Positions 7,292 to 51,443 of a stretch of DNA of 64,000 bases are shown here, piece by piece (within the stretch, counting starts at the first letter, position 1; the number at the start of each line of letters is the position of its first letter). Below the pieces are notes generated by a model. It saw only the letters and a program-made list of their open reading frames with translations. It did not search any database and was not told the DNA's origin. Made by a program: the position numbers and the translations under genes. The stretch covers positions 248,001 to 312,000 of the forward strand of contig JAXKVY010000001.1 in NCBI GenBank assembly GCA_036172455.1. Direction: 5' to 3'. This DNA comes from Candidatus Izemoplasma sp. Lineage in GTDB: Bacteria; Bacillota_I; Bacilli_A; Izemoplasmatales; Izemoplasmataceae.

Positions 7292-7323
7292 AATATAAAA
7301 AAGGCAGTGCTAAGCACTGCCTT
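7292..7323 (-). terminator. Terminator of the opp operon
   Basis: GGCAGTGC stem with GCACTGCC and a T6 tail on the minus strand, immediately after the last gene of the opp operon. Confidence 0.85.
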
Positions 7324-7677: not shown

Positions 7678-8751
7678 TTACTTCAATCCTTTTTTGTATT
7701 CTGCCAATTCCTCATCATTTGCTAAGACATAATGTCCTGGCTTGATTTCTTGAAGTGTTGGTTCTTGCTCACTGTAATCATGAACCTCTTCTGGGTTGTA
7801 ACGGATCCGTTTACGATTTTTCTCGTAACGTGGATCTGGAAGTGGTACAGCGGATAAAAGCGAACGAGTGTATGGATGAAGTGGGTTCAAGAATAATTCC
7901 TTACTATCTGCTAACTCGACTAAATTACCATAATACATTACCCCAATCCGGTTACTAAAGTACTTAACAACCGATAAATCGTGGGCAATGAATAGGATTG
8001 TAATACCAAGTTCATCACGTAAATCATTTAATAAGTTCATAACCTGTGCCTGAATTGATACATCTAAGGCACTGATTGGCTCATCGGCAATGATAAAGTC
8101 AGGCGAAACAACTAATGCCCGTGCAATACCAATACGTTGGCGTTGCCCTCCTGAGAACTCATGTGGATAACGCGAGGCATGTTCTGGTAATAACCCAACG
8201 GTTTTTAAGACATCATTAACTTTTTCATTAATTAAGTCTTCATCCCGTTCACCAGCGATTCGTAACCCTTCTGCAATAATTTCTTTTACTGTCATCCGTG
8301 GGTTTAGTGATGCGATTGGATCCTGGAAAATCATTTGCATGTCTTTCATTAAATCAAAATCAACATTATTATTATCGCGAACACGCTCTCTAATTTCCTT
8401 TTGACGTTCGGCAATCATTTGACGTTTTTCTTGATTAGACAATTCCTCGTTCATACGGATTTCTTTAATTTCAGTTTGTAATTGTCTAAATCCAGCACCA
8501 ATTCGTTGTCCTTTGAAATAAATTTCACCATCAGTTGGGTTATGTAATTTAATAATCGTACGTCCAGTTGTTGTTTTACCACAACCAGATTCCCCAACAA
8601 GGCCAAATACTTCACCTTTATATACATCAAAACTGACATTATCAATAGCTTTTACTAACATCCGGTATTTTCCAGTACCGTTAAGGAAATACGTTTTTAA
8701 ATTTCTAACACTCAAAATAGGTGTTTCGTTAGTGCGGTCTTGTGTACTCAT
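7678..8751 (-). CDS. oppF: Oligopeptide ABC transporter ATP-binding protein OppF
   Basis: A 357-residue ATPase with Walker A GESGCGKT (53-60), Q-loop IFQDP (141-145), signature SGGQRQR (200-206), Walker B IIADEP, and the C-terminal [12 protein letters not shown] segment of OppD/F proteins. An extra ~50-residue charged helical segment (about 84-134; [20 protein letters not shown]) lies between Walker A and the Q-loop. Its start overlaps the oppD stop (TAATG), so expression is coupled. With OppD it powers uptake of peptides delivered by OppA. Confidence 0.93.
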
Positions 8752-10199
8752 TAACTTTTCACCTCGCTGCTAGAACTTCTTTTTAACATCCGTTCAATAC
8801 GGTGTTTAATGACTTCAGGCATTTCTACCTTCGGTGCATCTTTGTGTAACAACCATGTTGCTGCATAATGTGAATCACTTATTTTAAACATTGGAGGTTG
8901 TTTTTCAAAATCTATTTTCATTGCATATTTATTACGATCCGCAAAGGCATCACCTTTAGGTGGATATAACATATTTGGTGGTGTACCAGGTATCGCAACT
9001 AAACGGTCAGAACTATCTAAGTCTGGCATTGAACTAAGAAGTGCCCAGGTATATGGGTGACGTGGATCATAGAAGACGTCTTCACTTGTTCCTAATTCAA
9101 CAATCTTACCAGCATACATAACACCGATACGATCTGCCATGTTTGCCACGACACCAAGGTCATGGGTAATAAAAATAACACTTAGATTATGTTCTTTCTT
9201 TAATTGGTTAATTAGTTCTAGAATTTGTGCCTGTATTGTTACATCAAGCGCTGTTGTTGGTTCATCACAAATAAGAATATCAGGATTAAGTGTTAACGCA
9301 ATTGCGATAACAATCCGTTGACGCATACCACCAGAGAATTGGAAAGGATATTGTTTCAACCGTTTTTCTGGTTCTGGAATCCCTACTTCATTCATGACAG
9401 TAATCGCGCGTTCTCTAGCTTCTTTTTTAGTAACTTGTTTAAACCGTGCTAGTTCTTCTTTACGATCAGCAATTTGCTTCTTAATTTGTGTTGCTTGTTC
9501 TTGAGTAGCATTTTGCAATTGTTCCTTTAACTGAGCGATATCTTGGTTTGCCTTTTCTTTTTCGGCATTCCAGATTTCTTTAATCTTTTTCTTGGCTTCA
9601 GCTTTTGCTTTTTTCAACGCTACTTTTGCTGGTTTTAACTCGTTTTTATCTTTTGCAATGCGGTCTTGCATTTTTTGTTTAGCTTCTTCTAAGTTGATTG
9701 TTTCATCTTCTTTTGCTTTCTTTTTTAACGCTTTAAACTCACGTTTAGCACGTTTAATATCACGCTTTAACCAGTCAACTCGCGCTTTTTCATCGTGAAA
9801 CATTTTTTCATATTTGTTTTTTAAACGTTTCCCATTTAAAATCATACCCTCAGTAATTTGTTTACCGATACGCATAATTGGATTCAAACTACTCATTGGA
9901 TCCTGGAAAATCATACCAATTTTATTACCACGAATTTCATGAAATTCTTCTTCTTCTATTTGGGTTAAATCTTCACCTTCATACATGATATTACCTTTAT
10001 CAATAACACCATTTCCAGCTAAGATTCCCATAATTGTACGACTTGTAACAGATTTACCACTACCAGATTCACCTACGATTGCAAGTGTTTCTCCTTCGTA
10101 TAAATCGAAATCAACACCACGTACGGCGCGCACCATTCCTTGAGTTGTCTTAAATGAAATCGTTAAGTCTTTAACTTCAAGTTTTTTATTTTTACTCAT
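8751..10199 (-). CDS. oppD: Oligopeptide ABC transporter ATP-binding protein OppD with long coiled-coil insertion
   Basis: 482 residues against ~330-360 in usual OppD. Walker A GESGSGKS (43-50), Q-loop IFQDP (97-101), signature FSGGMRQR (288-295), Walker B ILICDEP (308-314) and the C-terminal [12 protein letters not shown] are intact. The excess is a ~135-residue Lys/Glu/Ala-rich helical insertion (about 124-258) between Q-loop and signature, predicted by eye as a coiled coil. All catalytic motifs remain, so the ATPase should work; the insertion probably contacts another protein or membrane. It overlaps oppC by one base. Confidence 0.93.
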
Positions 10200-12106
10200 T
10201 ATTCAGACCCCCTTAAAGCAGGATTGAATGCATCACGTAGTGCATTACCAAACATATTAAATGTAATCATAAGTATTGAAATTAATATCGCTGGGAATAA
10301 GGTTAAATATGGACGGTCAACTAAGTAATTACGTGCATCCGATAATAATACACCAACACTTACTCCGGTAAAGGAGAATCCAAAGACTCTAAAGTCCTGT
10401 CCATGTCCAATACCAAACCCTAAATACGATAATGTCGATTCAGAGAATATAACATATGGGATAGAAAGGATACTCGTTGTAATAATCGTTCCGATACCAT
10501 TTGGTAAAATATGTCTGAAAATTAAACGTGAATCTTTTGCACCTAATGTGCGTGATGCAAGGACATATTCACGTCCTTTATATCGATAAAATTGCGTCCG
10601 GGTAATACCGGCTATACCAATCCACCCAGAAATAACTAAAATAAATATCAGCGTTTTCAAACCTGGTCCAAAGAATGCAATAAATATTGCTAGGGTAACT
10701 AACCATGGAATCCGTCCGACAATTTCACTAAAACGCTGCATGAGTAAGTCAACAGTTCCACCATAATATCCTGAAATTGATCCATAAATAATACCAATCG
10801 TAATATTAATAGCACTTACAACAAACCCAATCAATAGTGATGTTCTAGTACCAATCCATAATAATTTGAATAAATCACGACCAGCTTGATCTGTACCAAA
10901 GAGGTAATATGGTAATTCATCATATCCAGCATATAATTGATAATTTAAAATTAATTCATAAGAATAGTATTCAACACCATCTACAACAACACTCTCATTT
11001 TGCTTGATAACCTCTTGGATAGGACAGGTTTCTGGGAAAGTCCAACCATCAGGGTTTTCGCTATCAGGTGCGTTGTCTTGGCGAACACATTGTGGATTTT
11101 CAGCAATGATTTCATCATAGTTATTAGCACTAAATCCAACCTCGCGTTTATTACCAAACTGAGCAATGTAGTTATTAAATTGAAAATCTGCGACAAGTAA
11201 TCCAGCACCAGACCGCACAATACGTCCAGCACCACCTTCTGAAGCATCAATTTCATAATTACTAATCTCATACCCTGTATGTTCAAAAACAGGCTCTTCA
11301 CTTGAATCATCATTTACCGTAATACTCTCAATAGCAACGTGTTGACGGTTGTTCTCGGCTCTGTATTCAAAACGTAATTTAGAACTGATATACGTTGTTG
11401 TATTAAATGTTTCAAATGGTTCAATCGTGAACTCACCAGCTTCAGTGAATGTTTCAAGCAACTGATAATCACTACCTACTAGTAGATATAAGTCCAACTC
11501 AGTTCCATCACTAATATTATCAATATCAATAGTTAGGGTTGGATTTAATCCACGAATAAAAGTAACAAAGTCAGTCGATACAACCCGTACGAATGATGAT
11601 TCTGCATCTATGGCAATTTCAACGAGACCGCCACGACATGATTCATCTTTAGTAGAACATGGAATCTCATAATTGGTTAATGTATCCATATCGATTGATG
11701 CAACAGGATATCCAGTTGGAATTCCTAATCCTTCGGGTATTTCAGGATATTCATCATTATTAATTGTTGAAGGATCAACTGGTTCTTCTGTTTTTAACGA
11801 TGTTCCATCAAAGATTCCATAATTCTCTAAGATTGGAACACGTGGTGGTAAAAACGATAACTCTTCTTCTAATTCCGAAGCATTTTTATTGCTTACAAGT
11901 GGGAAGATAATCGTACCTAAAATAATTGAGAATAAAATAATTGTCGCAATAACATTCGTTCTATTTTTAGAAAAACGAATCATTGCATCTTTAAAATATC
12001 CTATTGGTTTCGTTTCAAACTTTTTATCAAATATTTTTTCTTCTGCTTGAACAAACTCAAAATCCTCAGATGTCAAGTCTAGCTGTTTTTTATCTTTTTC
12101 ATTCAT
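10199..12106 (-). CDS. oppC: Oligopeptide ABC permease OppC with ~330-residue external domain
   Basis: 635 residues; normal OppC has about 300. A cytosolic N-terminus and first membrane segment (about 51-71) are followed by a hydrophilic stretch to about residue 400. The canonical permease core then starts with FGTDQAGRDLFKLLWIG and contains the EAA loop (RYKGREYVLASRTLGAKDSR). The inserted domain is acidic and beta-rich with two close Cys pairs (C150/C157 and C340/C361), pointing to an extracytoplasmic domain. A substrate-guiding or OppA-docking role is inference. It overlaps oppB and oppD by single bases, so it is a true operon member and not a fusion artefact. Confidence 0.92.
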   Translation of the reverse strand: MNEKDKKQLDLTSEDFEFVQAEEKIFDKKFETKPIGYFKDAMIRFSKNRTNVIATIILFSIILGTIIFPLVSNKNASELEEELSFLPPRVPILENYGIFDGTSLKTEEPVDPSTINNDEYPEIPEGLGIPTGYPVASIDMDTLTNYEIPCSTKDESCRGGLVEIAIDAESSFVRVVSTDFVTFIRGLNPTLTIDIDNISDGTELDLYLLVGSDYQLLETFTEAGEFTIEPFETFNTTTYISSKLRFEYRAENNRQHVAIESITVNDDSSEEPVFEHTGYEISNYEIDASEGGAGRIVRSGAGLLVADFQFNNYIAQFGNKREVGFSANNYDEIIAENPQCVRQDNAPDSENPDGWTFPETCPIQEVIKQNESVVVDGVEYYSYELILNYQLYAGYDELPYYLFGTDQAGRDLFKLLWIGTRTSLLIGFVVSAINITIGIIYGSISGYYGGTVDLLMQRFSEIVGRIPWLVTLAIFIAFFGPGLKTLIFILVISGWIGIAGITRTQFYRYKGREYVLASRTLGAKDSRLIFRHILPNGIGTIITTSILSIPYVIFSESTLSYLGFGIGHGQDFRVFGFSFTGVSVGVLLSDARNYLVDRPYLTLFPAILISILMITFNMFGNALRDAFNPALRGSE

Positions 12107-13197
12107 TATTTTCTTGCCCCCATTCTAATTCTAGGATCAACAAGTCCGTAAGAGAGGTCAACGATCAATACTGCAAATAATGAAATAATTGTATAAAACG
12201 CAGTAAGACCTAATAATAAGTTATAATCGTAGTTATTTTTAACAAGTGCTTGTAAATACAATTTACCGGCTCCTGGAATACCATAAATTCGCTCAATAAT
12301 AACTGATCCACTTAATAATCCAACGAATGAGAAAATAATTCCTGGAACAAGTGGTACCATTGAGTTTCTCATCGCATGACGAATAACGGCTTGACGGCGA
12401 GTCAGCCCCTTTGTCCGCGCTAAGAGCAAGAATTCACTGGTAAGAACCTCCGTCAATTCAGCACGAGAAACACGTGTTAAACTTGCGACAGCTGCGAAAC
12501 TCAAACCAAATACTGGTAAGAACATACCCCAGAACTGAATAGCACCACCAAGGTCCGAAGATGGAAACTGAGCGGGGAACCACCCTAACTCATATCCAAA
12601 GAACATAACCAATAACGTCATGACAACGAAACTTGGAACGGAAATGAAAATCATAACCCCCAAAGAAATAATGTTGTCAATCAAAGAGTTTTTATTTAAT
12701 GCAGCTATTATACCTAATGCAAACCCTACAGGTATATAGAAGAAAAGTGAAATAATATTTAAGCGGATTGTAACTGGTAACCGTGTTTTTAATACATCAA
12801 ACACTGGTACATTAACTGCTACTCGAGTTGAGTAGCCCCAGTTCCAATCAGTAATAATGTTTTTGATCCATGTAAAAAATTGAGTGCTTAAAGGAATCGG
12901 TTTGTAAATACGATAGAATGTAGAATCTCCAATATCATCTACTTTTTCACAATACCATTCATTGTTAGCGCACTCCTCCCATTCACCGTTTTCAATTTCT
13001 GCTACCTCAAATGGGTCGTCAACAATAGTTGACGTCATGTAGCCATCATTTACTTGGCGTGTGAAATAAATGGTCCGTGCATCTTCTGTAGTTGGGGGAT
13101 ATTGTGGTGCCAACTTCAATATCGTGAAGTTTAAAGACAAAACAATAAAAATAACAATAAAGATAAACACAGATCTAATTAATATATATCTTCCCAT
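12106..13197 (-). CDS. oppB: Oligopeptide ABC permease OppB
   Basis: 363 residues; first membrane segment IFIVIFIVLSLNFTILKLAP, then an enlarged external loop (about 35-100) with a Cys pair in EECANNEWYC. The conserved permease core follows, with the EAA loop SRAELTEVLTSEFLLLARTKGLTRR and C-terminal LSYGLVDPRIRMG. The loop is ~45 residues longer than in typical OppB. It forms the translocation pore with OppC. A 300-base gap with a stem-loop separates it from oppA. Confidence 0.92.
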   Translation of the reverse strand: MGRYILIRSVFIFIVIFIVLSLNFTILKLAPQYPPTTEDARTIYFTRQVNDGYMTSTIVDDPFEVAEIENGEWEECANNEWYCEKVDDIGDSTFYRIYKPIPLSTQFFTWIKNIITDWNWGYSTRVAVNVPVFDVLKTRLPVTIRLNIISLFFYIPVGFALGIIAALNKNSLIDNIISLGVMIFISVPSFVVMTLLVMFFGYELGWFPAQFPSSDLGGAIQFWGMFLPVFGLSFAAVASLTRVSRAELTEVLTSEFLLLARTKGLTRRQAVIRHAMRNSMVPLVPGIIFSFVGLLSGSVIIERIYGIPGAGKLYLQALVKNNYDYNLLLGLTAFYTIISLFAVLIVDLSYGLVDPRIRMGARK

Positions 13198-13500: not shown

Positions 13501-16500
13501 TTAGTTTGCGACGATAGTTCTTTCTGCAGTAGTAAATGTAAATGTTTCTACATTACCATCATCGAATGTAACAGTCACTGTGTATTCAGTTCCACCAGTT
13601 AAACCAGTTTCTTCATAAACACCAGATGTAGCTGTTACTACATTTGCTCCAACTTCAAGTGATGTAACAGTTGCGTTACCACTTAAGTTAAGCGTAATAT
13701 CTGCAGTAGTTTCAGTTACATAAACACTAGCGCTAAGTAGATAAGCATTTGTGGTTACATAATACGTATCTGTACTGCCAGCAGTATCATCAAATGTTAC
13801 TTCAACTGCATACATTGTATCAGAATCTAAGACAGAAAGCTCAACAACAGTACCAATTACAGCATCATCTGCATCTTTATAATCAGCAGTAAAGTCAACT
13901 GTAGGTGTAACAGCAGTCCAAATTTCGTTACCTAGTGCATCATAAGTTACTTCATTCACAGTTACAGATGCAACAGCAAGTGTATCAACGTGAGTCAAAC
14001 TTAAGTCAGCAGTAGTTTCTGTAACTTCAGTAGCATCTAATGCGCTAACTGGATCTGGTGTAGGTACAGTAGCAGTTGAGAATGGTACATATTCAACGTT
14101 ACCATCACTAAATGTAAATTCAAGTGTATATGCAGTACCAGCAGTTAAGTTTTCAAGTTCAACTTGATCTAATTCAGCAGGACCAAAGTCAGAACCAGCA
14201 AGTCCAGAAACATCTAATTGTCCTAATGAAGTACCAGTTGGCATACCAGCAGTATCTGCAGCAAATAAATCTACAGTATCTAATACGCTACCAGCAGCTA
14301 AGAAGTCTGCATCTAAAGCGAAGTCAACAACAGCCGTTGTTTGAGTCGCTTCAACAGCAGTGTCAGCTAATACAGGTGTAGTAGTAAATGGTACAGACTC
14401 AACTAGAGTAACACCATCATCAACAAATGTATATTCAACATAGTACATAGTGTTAGAATCTAACGAACCAACAGTTAAGTTAGATAAGTCAGATGCGAAT
14501 ACACCAGAAGTTGAACTACTTAATGTTTCAATAACAGTTGTTCCATCTGCTTCATATAATGTTGCAGTAGTTAATTCACCAGCATAATCACTATCAAGTT
14601 CTACTGCAACATTTGCAGAGTCATACGCTACTTCAACTTCAGAACCAGTAAGAACAGTTAATGTAGTAAATGCGAAGTACTCAACATTACCATCATCATA
14701 AGTTACTTTTACAAGATAATCAGTTCCACTATCTAAATCAATAGTAGTCGACAATGTAAAGTCAGTAACATCTTCATCAGTTCCACTAGCAGGAGTAACA
14801 GCTGTAACACCTAATGTATCAATAGGTGTAAGAACTAAGTCTCCGTTTGCATCATACTCATGCAATGTAGCTGCTGTAATAGCAGGGGTTACATAGAAAT
14901 CAGTATCAATAGGATCGATTAGATCAATAACCATATCTGCATCGCTAAATGCAGGGTCAATCTCTACTGAACCAACTGCAGGAGTACTGAAACGATAGAA
15001 CTCAGTATTTCCATCAGCAAATGATAACAATAATGAATAATCAGTACCACTTACTAGACCATCTAATTCAAGATCATTAGCTAAATCAGTAACTTGTACG
15101 TCAGCAACCAATGTATCTCCAGACCACAATTGAGCATAATCTAGTGTACCAGTGTAATCTGCATCAACACCAACGTTAATTTGTGCATCTGTAGGTGATA
15201 CAACTTCAGTTTGCGCTTCAGGGTCTAAGATAGTTTTGGTAGTGAACCATGGAGATGTAGTAGAACCAGTACGAGGTGTTGTACCATCGTCAAGTGTTTG
15301 CCCAACATATTCAAATTCTACAACGATTTGATAGTCACCTTGATAGACAAGGTTACCGTCTGGATCATATCCATAGAAGTAAGGGTCTAAACCAGTAACT
15401 TCAATATCAGTTCCTGAAGTAGGTGTTACATCTACTAATCCAGCAACATCGTCATAAACACCAGTAAGTATATTATATGTTTGTACTGTGTATGTAATGT
15501 TAGTATATTTCGCTACTTCATCAAATTGGCTAATATCAAATGTAAATGAGGTAGGCGCCTTGCGTACGTTAGTTGCTGCAGGAACGTCTCCTTCTTCACC
15601 ATCAACGAGATAAACTTCACCATTTAATACAGAATGAATTGCATCAAATGACCAGATTTCATAACGTTTTTCACCATCAAATTCGTAAGCAACTTCGATT
15701 TCTGCTACAGAAGTATCAATACCCCAGTTAAGAGTAAATCCACTACGGTTATCAGAACTATAAGTATCTAAGAAGCTTGCCGCATCTAATGTAGAACCAC
15801 TAATACCACCGATTGAAAGATCGAATTGACCAATCATCATGTAGTCATAATAGATTCCAGGGAAGTCTTTTGGATATCCTTCTAATTCAACTTTTACATA
15901 ATTTTCATCATCTACAAATGCACTTTCAAATGCTTGTTTTAAATATTCAAACATTAAGACTTGTGCATTTGAATCAGCAAAGTAGTTAAACTCAATTGTA
16001 ATAACTTCGTACGCATCTGCAGTACCAGCAGTTAAATCACCGTCTGCAATTAAGTCTTCAACAGCACTCTTGAACAATGCTTGCGCTGCATCAAAGTTAT
16101 AACCATGTGTACTTGGAGATAATCCTTCACCAACAGATTCACCTTGTTCAGTTGAACGGTAAGGAATACCTAATTCAGGGTCAACTAAGTAAGCATCACT
16201 GAATAAATACATATTAGTTGTACTTGTTTTCAATACCTCTTCCGCTAATTTTTGACGGTCAATAGCGAAGAACATCGCCATTTTAAAGTCTTGATTAGCT
16301 AAGATTGGCTCTGGAGTCCAATCTCCATCAGGGAATTTGGCATCTTGTGCTTCTTGAGTTCCTAATCCGTTAATCATAATACGGAATGTTGTCGCACCAG
16401 GGATTCGTTTTAAACCTGGATGGTTTTTATATTGATCATACTTCTCAGTTGGAAGTGATACAGCATCAAGTTTTCCAGCTTCAAATTCTTGGAATGCAAT

Positions 16501-17907
16501 TTCAGAGTCATCTATACGTTGATATGTTTTGTGAGTATAGAAGTATAATTCTGGTGTATGGAATACATCATTCTTAACGAAACGGATCATTTTGTCAGCT
16601 TCATAGTAATCCAATACATAAGGTCCAGTCATACCAATCGTTTGTGGACTAGTACCATAAGGGTTAGTTTCTCCCTCTTCTAATCCTTGACCAAGGTACT
16701 CATATAACTCTAAGTTAATTGGTGTCATAACGAATGAACTTAACCAATACTTAACGTTCCATTCAGATTGTTGATCAACAAATTCAAATTTGATTGTATG
16801 ATCATCTACTAATGTAATACCAACATTTGCCCAATTGTCTTCAGTTGGTTCATTAGCATACGTTTCTGCACCAACGATAGCGTTAGAGCTTGTAACAAAG
16901 TCTCCGCCACCAGAAATAGCGCGGAACCAGTTTTCTTTTAGTGCTAGTTTGTATGTTCCAACAAAGTCATTTGCGTCGATTACTTCGTCATATTCAAATG
17001 CGTTAGTATCAACGTCTGGATGCATATACCATTCTAAGTCATCACGGATTGAGATAGACCAAGTATTGGCAACTAATTTACCAGTATCAGTCATTTCTTG
17101 ATCATCACCTGCAACAGGTAACCCGGCAGCCATTGATGGTACAACTTCATAACCAGTTTTGTCATCGTTATAAACATAAACATAAGGCGCGTCATAATAT
17201 TCACCCATTAAGTCACTATCAGTTGATGTGTCATACTTCCATTGGTTGAAAGTACCAGGGTTTGTACTAATCCATGTACGGTATGTGTACTCACCAGCAT
17301 TACCAAACTCACCATCATCCATTAATACAGTAGAGTCGTCTTCACTCATTGTAGCGAATGAAGTACCATACCCCATTACTGCTACATATTCTTCGACAGG
17401 TAATTGCATACGAGAACTATATAATGCGAATCCACCATTAGCAAATAGCGGAACACCTGCATACATATTGTTCATTAAGTACTTTTCAGCCGCAGCCATA
17501 AAGTCATGTCTAAGCTCTGTATCAGCAAATTTAAAGTTGTAGAATCCATCTTCTGGAAGTTCATACGTAATATTTGCATCAGATACAGTAACTTCACGAG
17601 TAACAGTTGTAACTACACCATCACTATCGGTAACTGTATACGTTAATGTATAAGTACCGTTTGTGTTAGCGTCAACTGTACCAGTAACTTCAATGTCTGA
17701 AGTTAAATCTCCATCTTCATCATCAGATGCAGATACACCTTCAAGGGCATCGAATGTCTCTCCTAAAGTAATTGTGATGTCAGTGACACCTGTAATCTCA
17801 GGAGCTTTGTTCTCTTCTTCCGGTGGTGTGTCGTCTCCGCCATTACCACAGGCAGCAAGACCCAACGTTAACGAGAACGCTGCTAGAAATAATAATAATT
17901 TCTTCAA
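13501..17907 (-). CDS. oppA: Giant oligopeptide-binding lipoprotein OppA with Ig-like and FN3-like domains
   Basis: 1468 residues; typical OppA has 540-600. Lipobox GLAAC (Cys20) anchors it. Residues ~35-110 form an Ig-like domain (APEITGVTDITITLGETF ... TYTVTDSDG). Residues ~120-790 form the SBP_bac_5 peptide-binding domain (DDLEWYMHPDVDTNAF, NQDFKMAMFFAIDRQKL). From ~790 to the end there are seven related 80-105-residue beta modules, most ending in a pattern like GTxYxVxVTFDDGNVExFxFTT. The tail is very acidic: from residue 900 onward only two Lys and two Arg. It probably captures peptides and extends well outward, perhaps also binding surfaces. It is first gene of the operon. Confidence 0.9.
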   Translation of the reverse strand: MKKLLLFLAAFSLTLGLAACGNGGDDTPPEEENKAPEITGVTDITITLGETFDALEGVSASDDEDGDLTSDIEVTGTVDANTNGTYTLTYTVTDSDGVVTTVTREVTVSDANITYELPEDGFYNFKFADTELRHDFMAAAEKYLMNNMYAGVPLFANGGFALYSSRMQLPVEEYVAVMGYGTSFATMSEDDSTVLMDDGEFGNAGEYTYRTWISTNPGTFNQWKYDTSTDSDLMGEYYDAPYVYVYNDDKTGYEVVPSMAAGLPVAGDDQEMTDTGKLVANTWSISIRDDLEWYMHPDVDTNAFEYDEVIDANDFVGTYKLALKENWFRAISGGGDFVTSSNAIVGAETYANEPTEDNWANVGITLVDDHTIKFEFVDQQSEWNVKYWLSSFVMTPINLELYEYLGQGLEEGETNPYGTSPQTIGMTGPYVLDYYEADKMIRFVKNDVFHTPELYFYTHKTYQRIDDSEIAFQEFEAGKLDAVSLPTEKYDQYKNHPGLKRIPGATTFRIMINGLGTQEAQDAKFPDGDWTPEPILANQDFKMAMFFAIDRQKLAEEVLKTSTTNMYLFSDAYLVDPELGIPYRSTEQGESVGEGLSPSTHGYNFDAAQALFKSAVEDLIADGDLTAGTADAYEVITIEFNYFADSNAQVLMFEYLKQAFESAFVDDENYVKVELEGYPKDFPGIYYDYMMIGQFDLSIGGISGSTLDAASFLDTYSSDNRSGFTLNWGIDTSVAEIEVAYEFDGEKRYEIWSFDAIHSVLNGEVYLVDGEEGDVPAATNVRKAPTSFTFDISQFDEVAKYTNITYTVQTYNILTGVYDDVAGLVDVTPTSGTDIEVTGLDPYFYGYDPDGNLVYQGDYQIVVEFEYVGQTLDDGTTPRTGSTTSPWFTTKTILDPEAQTEVVSPTDAQINVGVDADYTGTLDYAQLWSGDTLVADVQVTDLANDLELDGLVSGTDYSLLLSFADGNTEFYRFSTPAVGSVEIDPAFSDADMVIDLIDPIDTDFYVTPAITAATLHEYDANGDLVLTPIDTLGVTAVTPASGTDEDVTDFTLSTTIDLDSGTDYLVKVTYDDGNVEYFAFTTLTVLTGSEVEVAYDSANVAVELDSDYAGELTTATLYEADGTTVIETLSSSTSGVFASDLSNLTVGSLDSNTMYYVEYTFVDDGVTLVESVPFTTTPVLADTAVEATQTTAVVDFALDADFLAAGSVLDTVDLFAADTAGMPTGTSLGQLDVSGLAGSDFGPAELDQVELENLTAGTAYTLEFTFSDGNVEYVPFSTATVPTPDPVSALDATEVTETTADLSLTHVDTLAVASVTVNEVTYDALGNEIWTAVTPTVDFTADYKDADDAVIGTVVELSVLDSDTMYAVEVTFDDTAGSTDTYYVTTNAYLLSASVYVTETTADITLNLSGNATVTSLEVGANVVTATSGVYEETGLTGGTEYTVTVTFDDGNVETFTFTTAERTIVAN

Positions 17908-18371
17908 AATATTTTCTCCTCTCTCTTTCTAAAATATTAGATTTTTAGTTAAATCCTTTATTTATATAAATTTTGTTGACCTAATAGAATATATAGGTCA
18001 CAAAAGTTTATATCATGTGAAATTGTTTTGAAAAGTTAAAACAGATATTTCTTGGCACGATTACACGGTTCTAACTTTTTAAAAATTATATCATAAGTTA
18101 TCCAATATGTAAAGATTGTTTTGCTTTTTAACCCTTGAAAGTGCTTACGCTTTTTTTTCTTGCAACTTCTAATGAAAAAGAAAAAACACAGGGTTATATG
18201 AATGTTCAGACATATTATACAATAAATTCATCAAAATATCATCCCCATATTGAGAATTATTTAACTTTTTTGATAAAATTTAATATACCAAGCTTGTTTT
18301 ATCCTTTTATAAAGCGTTATTGATGAATTTATTGTATTTTTATCTGAAATTTTTCTAAATTTTTATCTTCT
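17908..18371 (-). promoter_or_regulatory. oppA promoter and ~170-base leader
   Basis: On the minus strand a good sigma-A promoter is visible: -35 TTTACA (18108-18113), 17-base spacer, -10 TATAAT (18085-18090). This gives a ~170-base untranslated leader. The leader contains an inverted repeat TGACCTA/TAGGTCA (17977-17983 and 17994-18000). About 23 bases upstream of the -35 lies TGAAAGTGCTTAC (18136-18148), which recurs exactly at the malE promoter. A 62-codon plus-strand reading frame here has no family features and is not called. Confidence 0.65.
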
Positions 18372-20561
18372 TTATTCACTTTGATCTTCATTGATGATAC
18401 GGATAATCTCGTCATCACTTGTGACATCACTCATAAGATAATCAGGGTCAACACCATCTTCAATACTAAAGTAATTTTCTCCATCACGGCGACTAAGCAC
18501 ATTATTCGTACTTACCATAATCGCTGAACCTTCTGGTAAAATGATGGTACCAATTGACGATGCGCCACCACTAGATGGTTGTCCCATTGTTGGAATACCC
18601 AGTTCTTGAGCCATGCTTGTCATAAGGTTTGCGGCACTAAAAGTTACACTGGAACTAAGAACATACCAATTATATTCTTCATATGCATTATAACTTGATT
18701 CAATATAATAGGTTACCGCCGAATTATCGGCTGGATTTTGTGAATGGTATTTGATTTGTGATTCTGTCATATACCCAAAGATTCGTAATACAGCGCCTAA
18801 GTTACCGCCTGTATTATACGATAAATCAACGACAATATTTTCCACACTACTTGGCAATCCATTAATAGTACTCTTGAACTCATCTGGTGTATCAATAGTA
18901 AAACCGGTAAGATGAATCACAGCTGTTTTATCATCATCGATTAAACTATACTCAGGAATATTAATATCTGACGAGGTACCACCAAATTTTTCAACTAAGG
19001 CGTCTTGTACATCCCATAATCCTTCATAAAACCGATTTACACGGCTACCAAAATCACTAAGAGAAGGTTGGGTAAAATGTCCTGGATTATGGTAATAATA
19101 ACCGTAGAAGATATGAGAACTATGTAAATCATCTAATCCGTAGGTGAAATCATATATTTCTTCATAAAAGTCCGTTGTACTTGCCCCGATCATGTTGTCG
19201 GCACGTAAGCTTAACTTTTCATAATATGTATCTACACCACGGAATTCTCTTAAACCATAGAAATAATCCATCGCAAAGGCTAAGTAATGATATGTAAACC
19301 ATTGCATATCTTCAGGCATATCTTCACCATTTAAGGCACTGGTTCTAACTTGTGTTTGTAAGGCTTCATTTTCTTCGCCACCACTACTTAACCCAAAGGT
19401 ATCGATACCATATAATGCTTCACCATTATAATAGACATCATAATAGATATTGCCAGCGAATAACATATTCGCAACACTTAACGGCATTAAGTAATATTGT
19501 TCTGTTTCATCAGCATATGGTAAAATATCAATGTTATATTCACCAAGTTCTAAAGTGACTTGGTCGCCATCGACATAATCAGCATCGACATAATCTAAAC
19601 CTTCACCATAGTCACTAGAAGTTGAGGCGATATAATTTTCAAAGAAACCAAAGTTATTCACCGTTACTGTATTACCAGTAAAATCGATTGATGCTGTAAA
19701 TGATTCTGTGACATTCGTTCCATCAAAGTCTTCGTAATCAATATCATAAGAGATTAACATTACATCCTCTTCGGTCATATTATAATTAAGGATGCTTGAA
19801 TCGATTGCACCATCAATCATGGTAATAAATGTTTCTATATCTATATATGGAACAGTCCCATTGTCAACATAAAATATCGGAATATCTGTTTGATCATCAA
19901 CTACATACTCATCACTTGTTCCAGTAAAGTCCATTAATACATTGTTAGTAACAGATACTTCACTATTTGGTGAAACAACATAATCATAGGTAAATGATTC
20001 CCGGTAATCTCCATTTACCGCTGTCATTGTTAAGGTGACAGTTTCTGATCCTGATCCTACTGGTGGATTAATCACAAAACCTTCAGGAGTAATTACCAAT
20101 GGATCACTTGATTGCCAGTAAAACTGTGTCCCATTCGATCCGAATTTCGGCAAGTCGAATTCTTCGGGAGTTGAAGACGGCATCGTAAAATTTTCCATAT
20201 CTAAGATAGCCAATTCTTCGTCTGTGTAAATATATTCAGATACAATGACATCAAATGTTTCTTCAACAGCATTGCCGGCATCATCGGTGACAGTTACGGT
20301 CACTTCATAGGTTCCTGGTGTCTCGAAATCCACTAAATCAGAATCAACGGTAATACTGACATCTTCGGTTGAATCATCTGATGCTTGAACCAATGATTCA
20401 AAATCGGGTAAGTCATCACCTATCGTAAAATGGACATCATCAATTGTGTCAATAACTGGATTTGTCACATCTTCTATCGTCTCAGGCCCACATCCAACTA
20501 AAGCAAAACTGAAACTCAATATCGCTATAAATAAAACAAATTTCTTAAATAAATTTAACAT
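18372..20561 (-). CDS. Secreted S41-family (C-terminal processing type) peptidase, lipoprotein with Ig-like domain
   Basis: 729 residues from the ATG after GGGAGG; a reading frame 22 codons longer lacks a ribosome site. Signal peptide with lipobox LVGCG, then an Ig-like domain (~30-105; VTVTVTDDAGNAVEETFDV) related to that at the front of OppA. The C-terminal third carries S41 features: VVDLSYNTGGNLGAVLRIFG and SSSVTFSAANLMTSMAQELG, where the Ser of TFSAAN aligns with the catalytic Ser. It probably cuts surface or environmental proteins, so peptides could feed the adjacent Opp importer (inference). Catalytic Lys was not identified. Confidence 0.75.
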   Translation of the reverse strand: MLNLFKKFVLFIAILSFSFALVGCGPETIEDVTNPVIDTIDDVHFTIGDDLPDFESLVQASDDSTEDVSITVDSDLVDFETPGTYEVTVTVTDDAGNAVEETFDVIVSEYIYTDEELAILDMENFTMPSSTPEEFDLPKFGSNGTQFYWQSSDPLVITPEGFVINPPVGSGSETVTLTMTAVNGDYRESFTYDYVVSPNSEVSVTNNVLMDFTGTSDEYVVDDQTDIPIFYVDNGTVPYIDIETFITMIDGAIDSSILNYNMTEEDVMLISYDIDYEDFDGTNVTESFTASIDFTGNTVTVNNFGFFENYIASTSSDYGEGLDYVDADYVDGDQVTLELGEYNIDILPYADETEQYYLMPLSVANMLFAGNIYYDVYYNGEALYGIDTFGLSSGGEENEALQTQVRTSALNGEDMPEDMQWFTYHYLAFAMDYFYGLREFRGVDTYYEKLSLRADNMIGASTTDFYEEIYDFTYGLDDLHSSHIFYGYYYHNPGHFTQPSLSDFGSRVNRFYEGLWDVQDALVEKFGGTSSDINIPEYSLIDDDKTAVIHLTGFTIDTPDEFKSTINGLPSSVENIVVDLSYNTGGNLGAVLRIFGYMTESQIKYHSQNPADNSAVTYYIESSYNAYEEYNWYVLSSSVTFSAANLMTSMAQELGIPTMGQPSSGGASSIGTIILPEGSAIMVSTNNVLSRRDGENYFSIEDGVDPDYLMSDVTSDDEIIRIINEDQSE

Positions 20562-20827
20562 TAAAAAGCCTCCCTTTTGATTATGTATATATTTGTTTGT
20601 ACCAACCCATTTTATCATATTTATCATGAAAAGTGAAAATTATTTTTAGTTCTATATAAGGTCCATTTTAACATCATGCTATTTAGACTATTTTGAGACA
20701 AGATGCGATACCCTTTTTAGCGCTTATTAATGCTCTAATATAAATGTAAGCGCAGTCATTAACACTTTGCTTTGTTAAAGGGTTAAAGCATTTTACACAA
20801 GTATTTATTATTTGTCAAATTGGATGG

Positions 20828-21793
20828 TTATATCCAATCTCTTAATTTGAAAAAGAGTATCATTATAATCGCAATAAATCCGCTAAAAGCAAAGAACCAA
20901 GGTAACGCATTTTGTACGGTTAAAATCGGCATATCAATAAAATTCATCCCAAAGACGCCAGCAAAAAACGATAATGGAATGAAAATGGCGCTAAAAATGG
21001 TTAATGTTTTCATTATTTCATTCATTCTATTAGCCATATAATTATTATATAAATCAACAATATTTCTAACCATTTCACGGTCTTCACTTAATAACATGTT
21101 TAACCGGTGGATATGATCGAATACATCTTCGTACTGCTGGGTTAATGACTCTGGTGGATTAAGATACTGTTTAAGTGTTTTTTGAACACTCGGATCGACT
21201 AATGTTTGAGCAAGTATTTTCAAGGTATAACTCTCTTTTCTTAATGTATGCAATGTCGTAATAGATTGATCTTCTTCTTCTAAAAAGCGTTGTTCTAATT
21301 CAAGTAAAGCACTTGCTAAATGGAGTTCCGTTTCTAAATAAAAATCAACCAGATGATCAAGCAATAAATATAGAAAATGATCTCTATCTAAAGAGCTGTC
21401 AGTGTCATCTTCTAAGCGTGATTTCAACTGATTAAACATATCAGTCGGTGTTTCACTGATTGTGATAATTTGATTGTTTCTACATATCACCTGAATATAT
21501 CTAGATATATCTTTTGGATGGTTTTGTGACGTTCCATTCACAACCATATACATACTGTTATTATGTGTTTCAATTTTCGTTCGTTGATTCGGATAAAAGA
21601 TGTCTTCAATCCATAACTTATCAACATTGATGTTAGTCAGTAAAGATTGAATTTGTGTTTGATCTTTAAGTCCATTAATTGAGATCCATTCCAATCCTGG
21701 ATCTTCGTTAATAACATACGTTTGAATCTGTGTGTCATAATACGTTTGATGTAACGATAACCCTGCTCGATTTAATTTTGATAAACGTCTCAT
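20828..21793 (-). CDS. CorA-family divalent metal ion transporter
   Basis: 321 residues from the ATG that follows GGAGGCTACT; an in-frame TTG upstream overlaps the ribosome site and was rejected. A long cytosolic alpha/beta N-terminal domain is followed by two C-terminal membrane helices. The signature GMN is in FAGVFGMNFIDMP and is followed by the acidic external loop and a short basic tail. It would import Mg2+ (or Co2+/Ni2+) as a pentamer. It is a single gene, divergent from mutY. Confidence 0.88.
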   Translation of the reverse strand: MRRLSKLNRAGLSLHQTYYDTQIQTYVINEDPGLEWISINGLKDQTQIQSLLTNINVDKLWIEDIFYPNQRTKIETHNNSMYMVVNGTSQNHPKDISRYIQVICRNNQIITISETPTDMFNQLKSRLEDDTDSSLDRDHFLYLLLDHLVDFYLETELHLASALLELEQRFLEEEDQSITTLHTLRKESYTLKILAQTLVDPSVQKTLKQYLNPPESLTQQYEDVFDHIHRLNMLLSEDREMVRNIVDLYNNYMANRMNEIMKTLTIFSAIFIPLSFFAGVFGMNFIDMPILTVQNALPWFFAFSGFIAIIMILFFKLRDWI

Positions 21794-21927
21794 AGTAGCC
21801 TCCAATAATTAATATACTTCATTATAACACTTTTATAGTATAAATAAAAAACCCTTTATCAAGTATTATTGCAATCAACATAATTGTTTTTTTCATAAAA
21901 ACCTTTTACAATAGGATAGGTGATATT

Positions 21928-31859: not shown

Positions 31860-32059
31860 CTATTCTTTATTCTAACATAAAATATAAAGAATTGGTAAAC
31901 CGTTTTCATTTTTTTTGTGTCCACAATGGAAAAATCACATGGGTTGTTCATATAACTATGCCGTTATTATTCTTTGAAAAGCAAAATGGTCTTTGGAGTA
32001 TGATGTAAAAGCGCTTGCAAAAAATTATAATTATCTCTTAAAAATCACTTGTTTCATGT

Positions 32060-32065
32060 TATAAT
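32060..32065 (+). promoter_or_regulatory. Extended -10 promoter of the second mnmM-like gene
   Basis: ATGTTATAAT: TATAAT with an extended TG, 19 bases before the chosen ATG. Confidence 0.5.
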
Positions 32066-32084
32066 GTGTGTAGAGGTGATAACA

Positions 32085-32627
32085 ATGATAAAGAAAGTAA
32101 TTCCTTTTGTACATAACAAACTTAAGGAAATTATTACCAACGATGACTATGTCATTGATGGAACATGCGGGAACGGATATGACACATTATTCTTGGCTAG
32201 ACAAGCTCGAAAAGTGTATGCGTTCGATATCCAAGAACTCGCTATAGAAAACACAGAAGAACGCATGAAACGCAATAAAATTCATAATGTAGAAACGATT
32301 TTAGATTCGCACGAAAATCTCGACAAGTATGTCGAAGAAGACATTAAAGCTGCTTTATTTAACCTTGGTCATCTACCAGGTAGTGACCAACGAATCGTAA
32401 CCCAAGGTCCATCGACAATTTCTGCCATTAAAAAGGTACAAGAACGCTTGGTACCAGGTGGTATGATTGCCCTTGTTGTGTATGTTGGTAAATTTGGTGG
32501 ACAAGAAGAAAGCGATGACGTATTAACCTATGTTGAATCGTTAGACTTCGATGATTATCATGTCATTAAATATAGTTATTATAATAAACCGCAAGGTCCT
32601 TATGTGATCTGCATTGAAAAACAATAA
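32085..32627 (+). CDS. mnmM: MnmM-like (YtqB family, PF06962) tRNA methyltransferase, paralogue 2
   Basis: 180 residues from the ATG after AGAGGTGATAACA; 12 further upstream codons belong to the promoter. SAM motif VIDGTCGNGYDTLFLA, acidic VYAFDIQ, then NLGHLPGSDQRIV and MIALVVYVGKFGG. It has the same length and layout as the gene at 2358-2900, clearly a paralogue but well diverged. One copy probably does the mnm5s2U34 methylation. It has its own promoter and terminator. Confidence 0.82.
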   Translation: MIKKVIPFVHNKLKEIITNDDYVIDGTCGNGYDTLFLARQARKVYAFDIQELAIENTEERMKRNKIHNVETILDSHENLDKYVEEDIKAALFNLGHLPGSDQRIVTQGPSTISAIKKVQERLVPGGMIALVVYVGKFGGQEESDDVLTYVESLDFDDYHVIKYSYYNKPQGPYVICIEKQ

Positions 32628-48935: not shown

Positions 48936-48966
48936 CAAAAAAACTGAAGTCAGCTGACTTCAGTTT
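48936..48966 (-). terminator. Terminator of the ligD gene cluster
   Basis: Perfect 26-base palindrome AAACTGAAGTCAG / CTGACTTCAGTTT followed by T7 on the minus strand. Confidence 0.85.
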
Positions 48967-49846
48967 ATAATTTGTCAATTAATTTATTAAGGGATACCTG
49001 TGAACGATTAATATTTCGCCATGGATCTTTGATTTGTCCTAATCGGTTAAAAATATTATGGTAAGTATACCGTTTTGGATCAAATGATTTCACCTTAAAT
49101 TCTCTCCACGTTAAAGGGGTTGCCACAGCGGCTTCTTTTACCGTTCTTATACTATAAGGCGCCACGCTTGTTTGCCCATAGGCATTTCTTAATGTGTCAA
49201 TAAAAACTTTACCGTTTCGTTTTTGCTTGCGTTGTTCCAACGTTGTTTTTTGGGGTAACTTTTCAACTAACAATTGTGCGAAATAATCAGCAACATCTTT
49301 TACTTTATCAAATGTTAATTCTGGTTTGATTGGTACAACAATATGGACGCCTTGTGAACCTGTTGTCATAATATACGGGGTTAGCCCATTTTTCTCTAAT
49401 ACATCTTTTAATGTGAGTGCAATTGATTTTACCACTTTGAGATTGTTTTGATTGGGATCTAAATCAAATATCATTTTATTAGGGGTTGTTAGTGATGATG
49501 TGTCTGATAACCAAGTGTGTAGTGTTATCACCCCTTGATTAATTAAATAACTTAATATTTTCTTTTTATTACATAAAATTTGCTGTTGCATCTCCCCCTC
49601 TTTCAAATCAATGGCAGTCGTATGTATCCAGTTTGGAAAATAATCAGGAACTTGTTTCATGTAAAAACCTTTTTTATGAACCCCTTCTGGATACCGTTCT
49701 AATGTAACAGGACGATTTTTGATATGGGGTAACATAAAAGCCGCTATTTTTTGATAGTAGGTAATAATGTCTTCTTTTGTTAGATTATTCTCAGGAAAAT
49801 ACATTTTGTCAAGATGTGAATATTCAAAATCTTTATAGTGTTTCAT
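48965..49846 (-). CDS. ligD: Stand-alone LigD polymerase/primase (POL) domain protein
   Basis: 293 residues, equal to the archaeo-eukaryotic primase-type POL domain of LigD. Seen: YYQKIAAFMLPHIKNRPVTLERYPEG at the N-terminus, catalytic Asp pair in FDLDPNQN, TTGSQGVHIVVP, and the basic KVFIDTLRNAYGQTSVAPYS. It adds nucleotides, often ribonucleotides, at broken ends. It is the last of three genes that together equal a complete LigD, only 3 bases after the ligase gene. No Ku gene lies in the window. Confidence 0.9.
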   Translation of the reverse strand: MKHYKDFEYSHLDKMYFPENNLTKEDIITYYQKIAAFMLPHIKNRPVTLERYPEGVHKKGFYMKQVPDYFPNWIHTTAIDLKEGEMQQQILCNKKKILSYLINQGVITLHTWLSDTSSLTTPNKMIFDLDPNQNNLKVVKSIALTLKDVLEKNGLTPYIMTTGSQGVHIVVPIKPELTFDKVKDVADYFAQLLVEKLPQKTTLEQRKQKRNGKVFIDTLRNAYGQTSVAPYSIRTVKEAAVATPLTWREFKVKSFDPKRYTYHNIFNRLGQIKDPWRNINRSQVSLNKLIDKL

Positions 49847-49849
49847 GTT

Positions 49850-50860
49850 TTATTCACCACTTTCTTTATGGATATCATTAATCGGTTTATCATCTCGAAG
49901 TCCAATAAAACTAGGGTGTCTTAACTTTGAATTTTCAGTCCATTCTGTAAACGTCACCTCAGCAACGTATTTTGGTTTAACCCAATGAACATTATGAGTA
50001 TCCATTGTTTTGATATTTTGAAGCGGCGAAGAGGATTGTTCGATTGCTCTTAAATCGTTAATAAAGGTGTCTAAAAAGTGATTGGTATATCCTGTGCCAA
50101 CCTTTCCAGCATACTGTAATGTCTGGTGCTCGAAGTATCCAACCAATAGAGCGCCAAAGCCAATTCGCTTACCACTTGGATCGGTATAGCCTATAATCAC
50201 AAACTCTTGCCTGTTTATACATTTGAATTTAAGCCATTTCTTACTTCGAGAACTAAGGTATTTGCTATCATAGTCTTTAGCGATAATACCTTCCCAGTTT
50301 TTCTCGCATGCTTCTTTTAAATATGTTTTTCCTGCTTGCTTAATATGTTGAACATAATGGATTGGCTCGCCAAATTGAACCATTTCTTTCAGTAATTTTT
50401 TGCGGGTTTTTAGTGGCAATGCTCTAATATCATAGTTATCAATATAAAGTATATCAAATATATAACAATATACTTTTATATTGTTATTTTTAATCGTTGT
50501 TTCATCCTCAAGATGCATACGTTTTTGTAATTTTGAGAAACTTGTTACACCATCTTCAAAGGCAACAATTTCAGTATCCAAGATAGCTCCCGATATAGCT
50601 TGATTTTGAAACGCTTTTACAATCTCCGGATAGCGCTTATTCAAAATTTTATGATTCCTTGATAATAAGGAGATATGACGTGATTCATCAATCTGTATCA
50701 TAACTCTTTGACCATCTAGTTTACGTTCATAAATCCAGTTTTCATCATCAAAATATTCATCTGTCAATGTTGCTAGCATGAATGAAACATTATTAGGAAG
50801 ATCAGAGGTTTTGAGATCATTCACGATGCCATCATCTAAGATATCTGTTAATTTAGTCAT
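49850..50860 (-). CDS. ligD: Stand-alone ATP-dependent DNA ligase (LigD LIG domain)
   Basis: About 336 residues. The nucleotidyltransferase motif with the AMP-accepting Lys is ERKLDGQR; other motifs are LLSRNHKILN, AILDTEIVAF, EGIIAKDYDSKY and WLKFK. The OB-fold follows with GKVGTGYT. Two ATGs six bases apart are possible; I chose the second for ribosome-site spacing (AAAGGA). It overlaps the phosphoesterase gene by a few bases, so translation is coupled. It seals double-strand break ends, probably with Ku from elsewhere. Confidence 0.9.
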   Translation of the reverse strand: MTKLTDILDDGIVNDLKTSDLPNNVSFMLATLTDEYFDDENWIYERKLDGQRVMIQIDESRHISLLSRNHKILNKRYPEIVKAFQNQAISGAILDTEIVAFEDGVTSFSKLQKRMHLEDETTIKNNNIKVYCYIFDILYIDNYDIRALPLKTRKKLLKEMVQFGEPIHYVQHIKQAGKTYLKEACEKNWEGIIAKDYDSKYLSSRSKKWLKFKCINRQEFVIIGYTDPSGKRIGFGALLVGYFEHQTLQYAGKVGTGYTNHFLDTFINDLRAIEQSSSPLQNIKTMDTHNVHWVKPKYVAEVTFTEWTENSKLRHPSFIGLRDDKPINDIHKESGE

Positions 50861-51443
50861 TGTCATTGTCCTTTAAGTTTTCTATTGTTTGATCACTTAC
50901 AATGGATTTTGGTTCTGTTTTTGTCGGTTTTCGTCTACGATCTGCTGCTTTGTCATCTTCTTTGATTAATAACCATTGATCGTCGCCACGATCAATATCG
51001 ACTAGTGAGTAGCCGCCGTTAAGTTTTTCCCCTTCAAGCCATATCGAAATATGGCCCTTGTCATAAGCTGTTTTCATCGAAATAGACTCACCATCTTTTT
51101 TTGTGTTGTTCTCATATGTCCCCTTATCCCATATGATAACTTCTCCGGCCCCATAATTATCTTCGGGTATGACGCCTTCAAAGTCAGCGTATTTTAGTGG
51201 ATGATCTTCTGTCGCAATTGCTAACCGTTTGTCTGATGGATTTGTAGAAGGACCTTTGGGAACAGCCCACGACTTTAAAACACCCTCCACTTCTAAGCGA
51301 AAATCGTAATGCTCATTTGATGCATTATGTTTTTGAATAACAAAGATTGGATTATCATATGATGTATTAGCTTTCTTTTTGGGTTCAGGTGTCTGATCAA
51401 AATCTCGTTTTTTCTTATATGTATCTAATGATTTTTTTACCAT
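50853..51443 (-). CDS. Stand-alone 3'-phosphoesterase (LigD PE domain)
   Basis: 196 residues with the PE signature FVIQKHNASNEHYDFRLE, SWAVPKGPST, TEDHPLKYADFEG and YGAGEVIIWDKGTYE. The His/Asp/Arg residues bind Mn and remove 3' phosphates or terminal ribonucleotides. It has basic tails at both ends. It is first in the operon PE-LIG-POL with its own promoter and AAAGGTGATG ribosome site. Confidence 0.9.
   Translation of the reverse strand: MVKKSLDTYKKKRDFDQTPEPKKKANTSYDNPIFVIQKHNASNEHYDFRLEVEGVLKSWAVPKGPSTNPSDKRLAIATEDHPLKYADFEGVIPEDNYGAGEVIIWDKGTYENNTKKDGESISMKTAYDKGHISIWLEGEKLNGGYSLVDIDRGDDQWLLIKEDDKAADRRRKPTKTEPKSIVSDQTIENLKDNDND

Follow-up and report, generated by a model that had tools for sequence, protein, structure and literature searches.

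A probable circularly permuted OppA core in a large lipoprotein

We analyzed a 64,000-nucleotide stretch of a Candidatus Izemoplasma sp. genome (contig JAXKVY010000001.1, positions 248,001 to 312,000; hereafter the window) and a 1468-residue OppA-like lipoprotein encoded on its minus strand at 13501–17907. We conclude, with a probability of about 0.83, that this protein is the substrate-binding lipoprotein of an Opp ATP-binding cassette (ABC) importer and that its core has the OppA fold in a naturally circularly permuted form. Sequence comparisons showed that the element with which ordinary OppA proteins end sits before the body of the protein, at residues ~118–190; the most likely function predicted for the protein is peptide capture and import.

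The open reading frame (ORF), a run of 4407 bases and 1468 codons without a stop, had been noted from the DNA letters alone in an earlier note, and its extent was borne out, with a TTG start preceded by an AGGAG ribosome-binding sequence 8 nt 5′ of it (17916–17920). All coordinates given for its parts refer to the minus strand. The N-terminus was a lipoprotein signal peptide (residues 1–20, 17848–17907) with the lipobox LAAC and Cys-20, followed by a Bact_surface_Ig-like domain (residues 37–108, 17584–17799; PF16403, E = 2.7e-20) that passed its curated Pfam cut-off with 72.6 bits against 27. Next came the presumed relocated element, which we call segment C (residues 120–190, 17338–17550), and then the canonical N-terminal part with the main body of the substrate-binding protein (SBP; residues 201–775, 15583–17307), in which SBP_bac_5 (PF00496) matched residues 309–722 (4.4e-29; 102.2 bits against a cut-off of 32.4). 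In VIA-align comparisons, the core matched OppA, DppA, and AmiA structures with Z scores of 19–25 over 406–478 residues, and the AlphaFold2 model of residues 24–980 had a predicted local distance difference test (pLDDT) score of 87.6, with 84–94 for segment C. The protein thus passes the SBP_bac_5 cut-off and has the OppA/DppA fold, but not the ordinary chain order. The arrangement described in the earlier note, in which an N-terminal Ig module precedes the peptide-binding domain and C-terminal beta modules resembling FN3 domains follow it, agreed with the Pfam, AlphaFold2, and VIA-align results; the circular permutation of the core had gone unmentioned. No other SBP_bac_5 protein was found in the 1.69-Mb genome (1,688,629 bases in 10 contigs, 99.01% complete, 0% contamination).

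Evidence for relocation of segment C

Known OppA structures aligned with the model from their first residues to ~30–70 residues before their own ends, covering model residues ~161/183 to 743 (protein residues 184/206 to 766). None of them aligned with the front of the model, where a confident helix and two strands follow the Ig domain. Since these structures never reached the model front and stopped short of their ends, the alignments suggested that the missing end had been moved forward. A profile of family residues 112–192 matched four related OppA proteins (L077, L078, L074, and L030) solely at their extreme C-termini, with E values of 5.6e-9 to 7e-6; the best-scored match covered residues 1125–1171 of 1184 (5.6e-9). 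The stretch TELRHDFMAAAEKYLMNNMYAGVPLFANGGFALYSSRMQLPVEEYVAVMGYG of the window protein aligned with DDFDNITGALEGELLRQMINIPLFTTVSATTYSDRIVFEANAYHAWMAWG of L074. The canonical relative L108 ends with ...TYYDWSVALDGSGGEYSAAKADKETRLTILSAVELALCQQYRFVSVYARGDAYLLSYKVEEGVDEYVPVMGYGG, corresponding to the end of the window core (...YEIWSFDAIHSVLNGE, residues 752–767) joined to the window front (FYNFKFADTELRH..., from residue 122 onward). Because the end of L108 unites the core end and the front of the window protein, the cut can be placed in one loop, at the old C-terminal junction between ...IHSVLNGE and FYNFKFADTELRH. Residue 775, the last of the body, lies at the same cut, indicating that the new N- and C-termini arose from one point of the fold.

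We then considered the whole class, scanning 395 genomes with a junction profile of residues 112–300. This profile gave a single contiguous match in permuted ORFs, and its halves were found in reversed order, ~2 kb apart within one ORF, in G308, G220, G087, G329, G381, G137, and G009. Segment C preceded the body in 64 ORFs, a set that includes some genes fetched twice, and lay at the extreme C-terminus in 16 related OppA proteins (18 with a second profile); among these 64 permuted and 16 canonical proteins, it was never found mid-protein or in two copies. Duplication in place of permutation was rejected, as no protein carried two copies of segment C. A profile made from permuted proteins outside the order of the window organism found all the canonical C-termini, plus L135 and L128, and the reciprocal profile from canonical C-termini found 63 of the 64 permuted proteins, always in front (window protein, 1.5e-12). 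Appending segment C raised the score against a sister profile by 7–8 bits on average and shuffled segments gave no gain; positions 631–689 of the sister profile matched ahead of positions 60–525.

A probable single permutation, likely followed by permease enlargement

In a tree built on the body common to both forms, with 66 rows and four added ordinary OppA proteins, the permuted proteins formed one clade (support 99/95) that required one change, as in 98% of bootstrap trees, so that one permutation event is enough. The canonical order is ancestral, because the distant ordinary OppA proteins attached on the canonical side of the tree. The permeases of canonical systems were small (OppC, 427–563 aa; OppB, 318–332 aa) and those of permuted systems were larger (OppC, 616–917 aa; OppB, 344–378 aa), with the exception of a basal permuted branch (L075, L116, L136, and L137) having OppC proteins of 441–525 aa and OppB proteins of 317–319 aa. 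The retention of small OppB and OppC in this branch indicates that the permutation probably came first and the growth of the OppB and OppC ectodomains later.

C-terminal extensions longer than 100 aa, of several unrelated kinds, were carried by 29 of 48 permuted proteins and by none of 16 canonical ones; the Fisher p value for tails versus chain order (1.4e-5) is descriptive only, owing to shared descent. The copy from Fusibacter tunisiensis fell within the tailed Izemoplasma clade and looks like a lateral transfer. Among the other architectures, the permuted OppA proteins L062, L063, L111–L113, and L123 had a ~175-aa C-terminal extension, not FN3-like, that ends ...YY(I/V)GW(A/Y)WL or similar. 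A 1981-aa permuted SBP (L070, 600–6545, minus strand, in G052) had Listeria-Bacteroides repeats in front and two C-terminal CBM_4_9 domains, and L082 and L083 (in G026 and G043) had 500–900 residues of Big_2/Ig-like domains before the core and no C-terminal tail.

Several observations weigh against this reading or limit it. hhalign of segment C against 27 more distant ordinary OppA proteins of the order gave no significant match, and the position of the segment within the fold is deduced from profiles and model confidence. PDB searches found no solved structure of a permuted OppA; that a canonical fold carries its terminal segment at the other end is a result of sequence comparison. The correlations of permease size and of tails with chain order given above reflect clades, not independent events. 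An hmmsearch of the doubled core with the profile of the 27 distant proteins likewise gave no permutation signal, and neither segment C by itself nor profile A4 retrieved a substrate-binding protein from the PDB. The homology of segment C was therefore visible only with nearer canonical relatives. An ordinary OppA core fused to an unrelated linker domain, with the likeness of residues 118–190 due to convergence or a mobile motif, would account for the silence of the distant proteins and for the shortness of the matched stretch (~50–70 residues). It would leave unexplained why reciprocal profiles find the element at the very end of the proteins of one group and directly before the body in those of the other, never at both, why permuted cores have no C-terminal element after the body, and why the sister-profile positions match in transposed order; we consider it very improbable.

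The tail comprises a distinct module and six homologous modules

Beyond the core, the protein continued with a module M1 (residues 776–890, 15238–15582), a conserved beta module also present after the core in relatives with FN3 tails, and with modules M2–M7 (residues 891–1461, 13525–15237). The limits of the latter were 891–976 (M2), 977–1083 (M3), 1084–1177 (M4), 1178–1279 (M5), 1280–1387 (M6), and 1388–1461 (M7), so that the modules span 74–115 aa and not the 80–105 residues noted earlier. In a leave-one-out hidden Markov model test, M2–M7 each scored above all 2000 shuffles (0/2000 as good), and M1 was matched by 268 of 2000 shuffles against the profile of M2–M7, with no sequence homology recognized. 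Since M1 failed a test that M2–M7 passed, it represents a separate domain; of the seven like modules proposed in the earlier note, the beta modules stood, as one distinct plus six homologous ones. The recurring end motif was clear in M2, M3, M5, and M7 and degenerate in M4 and M6. In the aligned tails, M1 had nine invariant columns, and its pLDDT was mostly above 90; next to it, the sequence conservation of M2–M7 was low.

The tail was predicted to be all-beta (mean pLDDT 71.8), in line with the beta modules expected. Its best VIA-align rows were fibronectin and tenascin FN3 domains (Z 9.5–10.4), and the chains listed for it were all FN3-like; the tail might also have another Ig-like fold. In the domain search, the Ig domain was recovered, and Pfam matched nothing in the tail of the 1468-aa protein at E ≤ 1, the fn3 cut-off not being reached; weak fn3 matches, all in relatives, occurred in six of nine aligned tails (best 2.4e-4). 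The label FN3-like is thus fair for M2–M7, and FN3 is unproven.

A search of related genomes for this architecture recovered the same operon across the order, with the tail shorter or missing in the others: one to five FN3-like modules followed M1 at the same place in relatives, the six of the window being the highest count seen, and tail-less orthologues of 752–792 aa stopped where the window core stops (~residue 775). Collapse or misassembly of a repeat is an unlikely artefact, which we rejected, since Tandem Repeats Finder detected no tandem repeat in the tail DNA, the longer DNA repeat copies were diverged (~60–79% alike), and module counts vary among relatives. The tail sequence had no second copy elsewhere in the genome, and a PHROGs search with it gave no match.

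The last 570 residues contained two Lys and two Arg against 66 Asp and 34 Glu, exactly the four basic residues counted before. This acidity is not a special feature of the protein, as had been supposed: every lipoprotein-like exported protein in the window was acidic, with a net charge of about −10 to −15 per 100 residues, as were the tails of all relatives, including those from seeps and lakes. We therefore rejected acidity as a halophile-specific or distinctive trait.

The opp operon and its surroundings

The genes oppB, oppC, oppD, and oppF lay directly downstream of oppA on the same strand, giving the two permeases and two ATPases of an Opp-type importer. OppB (12106–13197, 363 aa), identified by Pfam and NCBIfam, is larger than the 317–332 aa of canonical-order systems. 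OppC (10199–12106, 635 aa), identified likewise, contained an insertion of ~300 residues after its first transmembrane segment (residues ~89–400, 10907–11842), between OppC_N and the permease domain; this region has four cysteines, has no Pfam match, and is expected to be extracellular. The same insertion was found in nearly all permuted systems, including that of Fusibacter. OppD (8751–10199, 482 aa; Pfam and NCBIfam) had a Lys/Glu-rich, probably coiled insertion of ~120 residues between the Walker A and signature motifs, and its length among relatives ranged from 343 to ~720 aa. OppF (7678–8751, 357 aa) matched MMSYN1_0168 of NCBIfam (2e-125) and OppF models.

Upstream of oppA, a 464-nt intergenic leader (17908–18371) carried a promoter-like site with an extended −10 element (TTTACA-17-TATAAT with TG, 18085–18113), and a terminator-like hairpin lay 3′ of oppF (7301–7323); both are on the minus strand and are consensus matches only. 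Rfam gave no match above the gathering threshold in 17800–21900, which includes the leader. The adjoining minus-strand gene (18372–20627) encodes an S41-peptidase-like lipoprotein with Ig-like and aBig_2 domains, identified by Pfam and synteny, which also adjoins oppA in the FN3-tailed L033, L035, L037, L038, L071, L072, and L081; it is perhaps a peptide supplier for OppA.

Elsewhere in the window, DNA ligase D was encoded by three adjacent single-domain genes (48965–51443) for the 3′-phosphoesterase, the ligase, and the polymerase. Two genes (2349–2900 and 32049–32627), apparently paralogues, both matched the tRNA U34 methyltransferase MnmM (206 and 210 bits against a cut-off of 135).

Possible working of the importer and role of the tail

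OppA proteins shut their two lobes on a peptide and then dock on OppBC. In the window system, the lipid at Cys-20 and the Ig domain, acting as a spacer, would tether the protein to the membrane, and the two lobes would grip a peptide as they do in other OppA proteins. OppA with its cargo would dock on OppB and OppC, which have larger extracellular parts in nearly all permuted systems, and OppD and OppF would power import by hydrolyzing ATP. Domain III of OppA and AliD is in lobe 2, and that of AliD comprises residues 297–582 (PMC11192437). A cut late in domain III would shift the lipid tether from lobe 1 to lobe 2, with the new C-terminus also leaving from lobe 2, because the cut lies within this second-lobe part. 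The new C-terminus would be free, and lineages have attached different domains to it. As a tentative model, to which we give somewhat less than an even chance, the tether shift caused by a single permutation turned the binding protein relative to the permease, and the ectodomains of OppB and OppC later enlarged to fit a partner in its new orientation. FN3-like chains, carbohydrate-binding domains, and helical repeats would then have been built on the freed C-terminus, so that wall-less bacteria and their relatives would have remodeled an ABC importer step by step.

We infer that the tail is a surface-exposed arm: M1 and the six FN3-like modules would form an extended acidic structure outside the wall-less cell, directed away from it. 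It may serve as a device for reach, spacing, and low-affinity contact by which the cell stays close to neighbors or to particles that bear peptides, a proposal that we favor with reserve. A dual function, in which peptide capture is combined with adhesion via the FN3-like tail, draws on the frequency of such chains among adhesive surface proteins, on module numbers that vary among relatives as for surface arms, and on the C-terminal CBM_4_9 of L070, borne on the same kind of permuted SBP. Against these stand the fact that the tail showed no known binding motif and matched no family, the many tail-less orthologues that nevertheless have the operon, and the absence here of the P-loop needed for adhesion by Mycoplasma hominis OppA, so that we regard adhesion as possible and rather doubtful.

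The tail might instead act passively, as a soluble and acidic spacer or shield by which the protein stays open and hydrated in saline water. Its composition, typical of the exported lipoproteins of the window, and the poor conservation of M2–M7 relative to M1 would fit this; yet tails are as acidic in relatives from seeps and lakes, the proteome of an Izemoplasma metagenome-assembled genome from a Dead Sea spring is not unusually acidic (PMC12993556), a spacer would not need six folded modules, and M1 is conserved with invariant residues. This explanation, too, seems to us conceivable without being the one to expect. Docking of the tail on the enlarged extracellular parts of OppC and OppB, aiding permease loading, was suggested by the occurrence of enlarged OppB and OppC solely with permuted OppA. 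We consider such docking improbable and rejected the OppC ectodomain as the tail partner, because tail-less permuted orthologues, including that of F. tunisiensis, have equally large OppC proteins (630 aa in L039 and 629 aa in L083), and OppC size is thus independent of the tail.

Both chain orders coexist in one bacterial class, making a before/after comparison possible. The tree gives an order of events, with the permutation preceding the larger OppB and OppC ectodomains, and C-terminal arms occur solely on permuted proteins; whether the way in which a binding protein and its permease meet depends on the position of the tether is now a directly testable question. There is also a warning for annotation, as sequential searches label the core a normal SBP_bac_5 and overlook the rearranged piece.

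Comparison with known systems

The pneumococcal lipoproteins AmiA, AliB, AliC, and AliD (PDB 8qlc; PMC11192437) share the OppA fold and a large peptide cavity with the window protein; AliD was the best PDB profile match (3.8e-30) and this group the top Foldseek match. They differ in having the ordinary chain order and neither an Ig domain nor an FN3 tail, and the known structure aligned only to about residue 554 of the 624 modelled. The Opp3 and MMSYN1_0165–0168 permease models of NCBIfam were the best models for OppB, OppC, OppD, and OppF, all with matches under the curated cut-off, and relative to them the window OppC has the extra ~300-residue insertion. Compared with Pfam fn3 domains, the tail shows an all-beta likeness (VIA-align Z ~10 to fibronectin FN3 pairs) at moderate model confidence.

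M. hominis OppA (P100) is likewise a large OppA lipoprotein of a wall-less bacterium that serves an Opp importer. It is a 961-aa ecto-ATPase whose C-terminal Walker motifs are required for adhesion (PMC3179953). The Walker A P-loop pattern [AG]x4GK[ST] was absent from the 1468-aa OppA, and for this reason we rejected a P-loop or ecto-ATPase of the M. hominis type; the analogy with Mycoplasma OppA from which an adhesive role had been drawn therefore fails.

Natural circular permutations are rare in ABC substrate-binding proteins. No report of permuted OppA or peptide-binding proteins was found among open-access papers, which is weak evidence of novelty, and the sole precedent found in that literature was the Treponema pallidum glucose-binding lipoprotein Tp0684 (MglB-2). 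This sugar-binding lipoprotein of “Type Ic / Cluster Bc” is a natural circular permutation of a type that also occurs in Gram-positive bacteria, and its authors suggest a link with membrane tethering (PMC4990184). Both proteins are naturally permuted ABC substrate-binding lipoproteins in our reading. Tp0684 belongs to cluster B, binds glucose, and has its N-terminal strands moved to the C-terminus, whereas the window OppA is a family-5 peptide-binding protein with a C-terminal segment moved forward, showing neither cluster B membership nor the Tp0684 cut. The permutation of the window OppA is independent of the Tp0684 event and would be a second such case, in the large OppA family.

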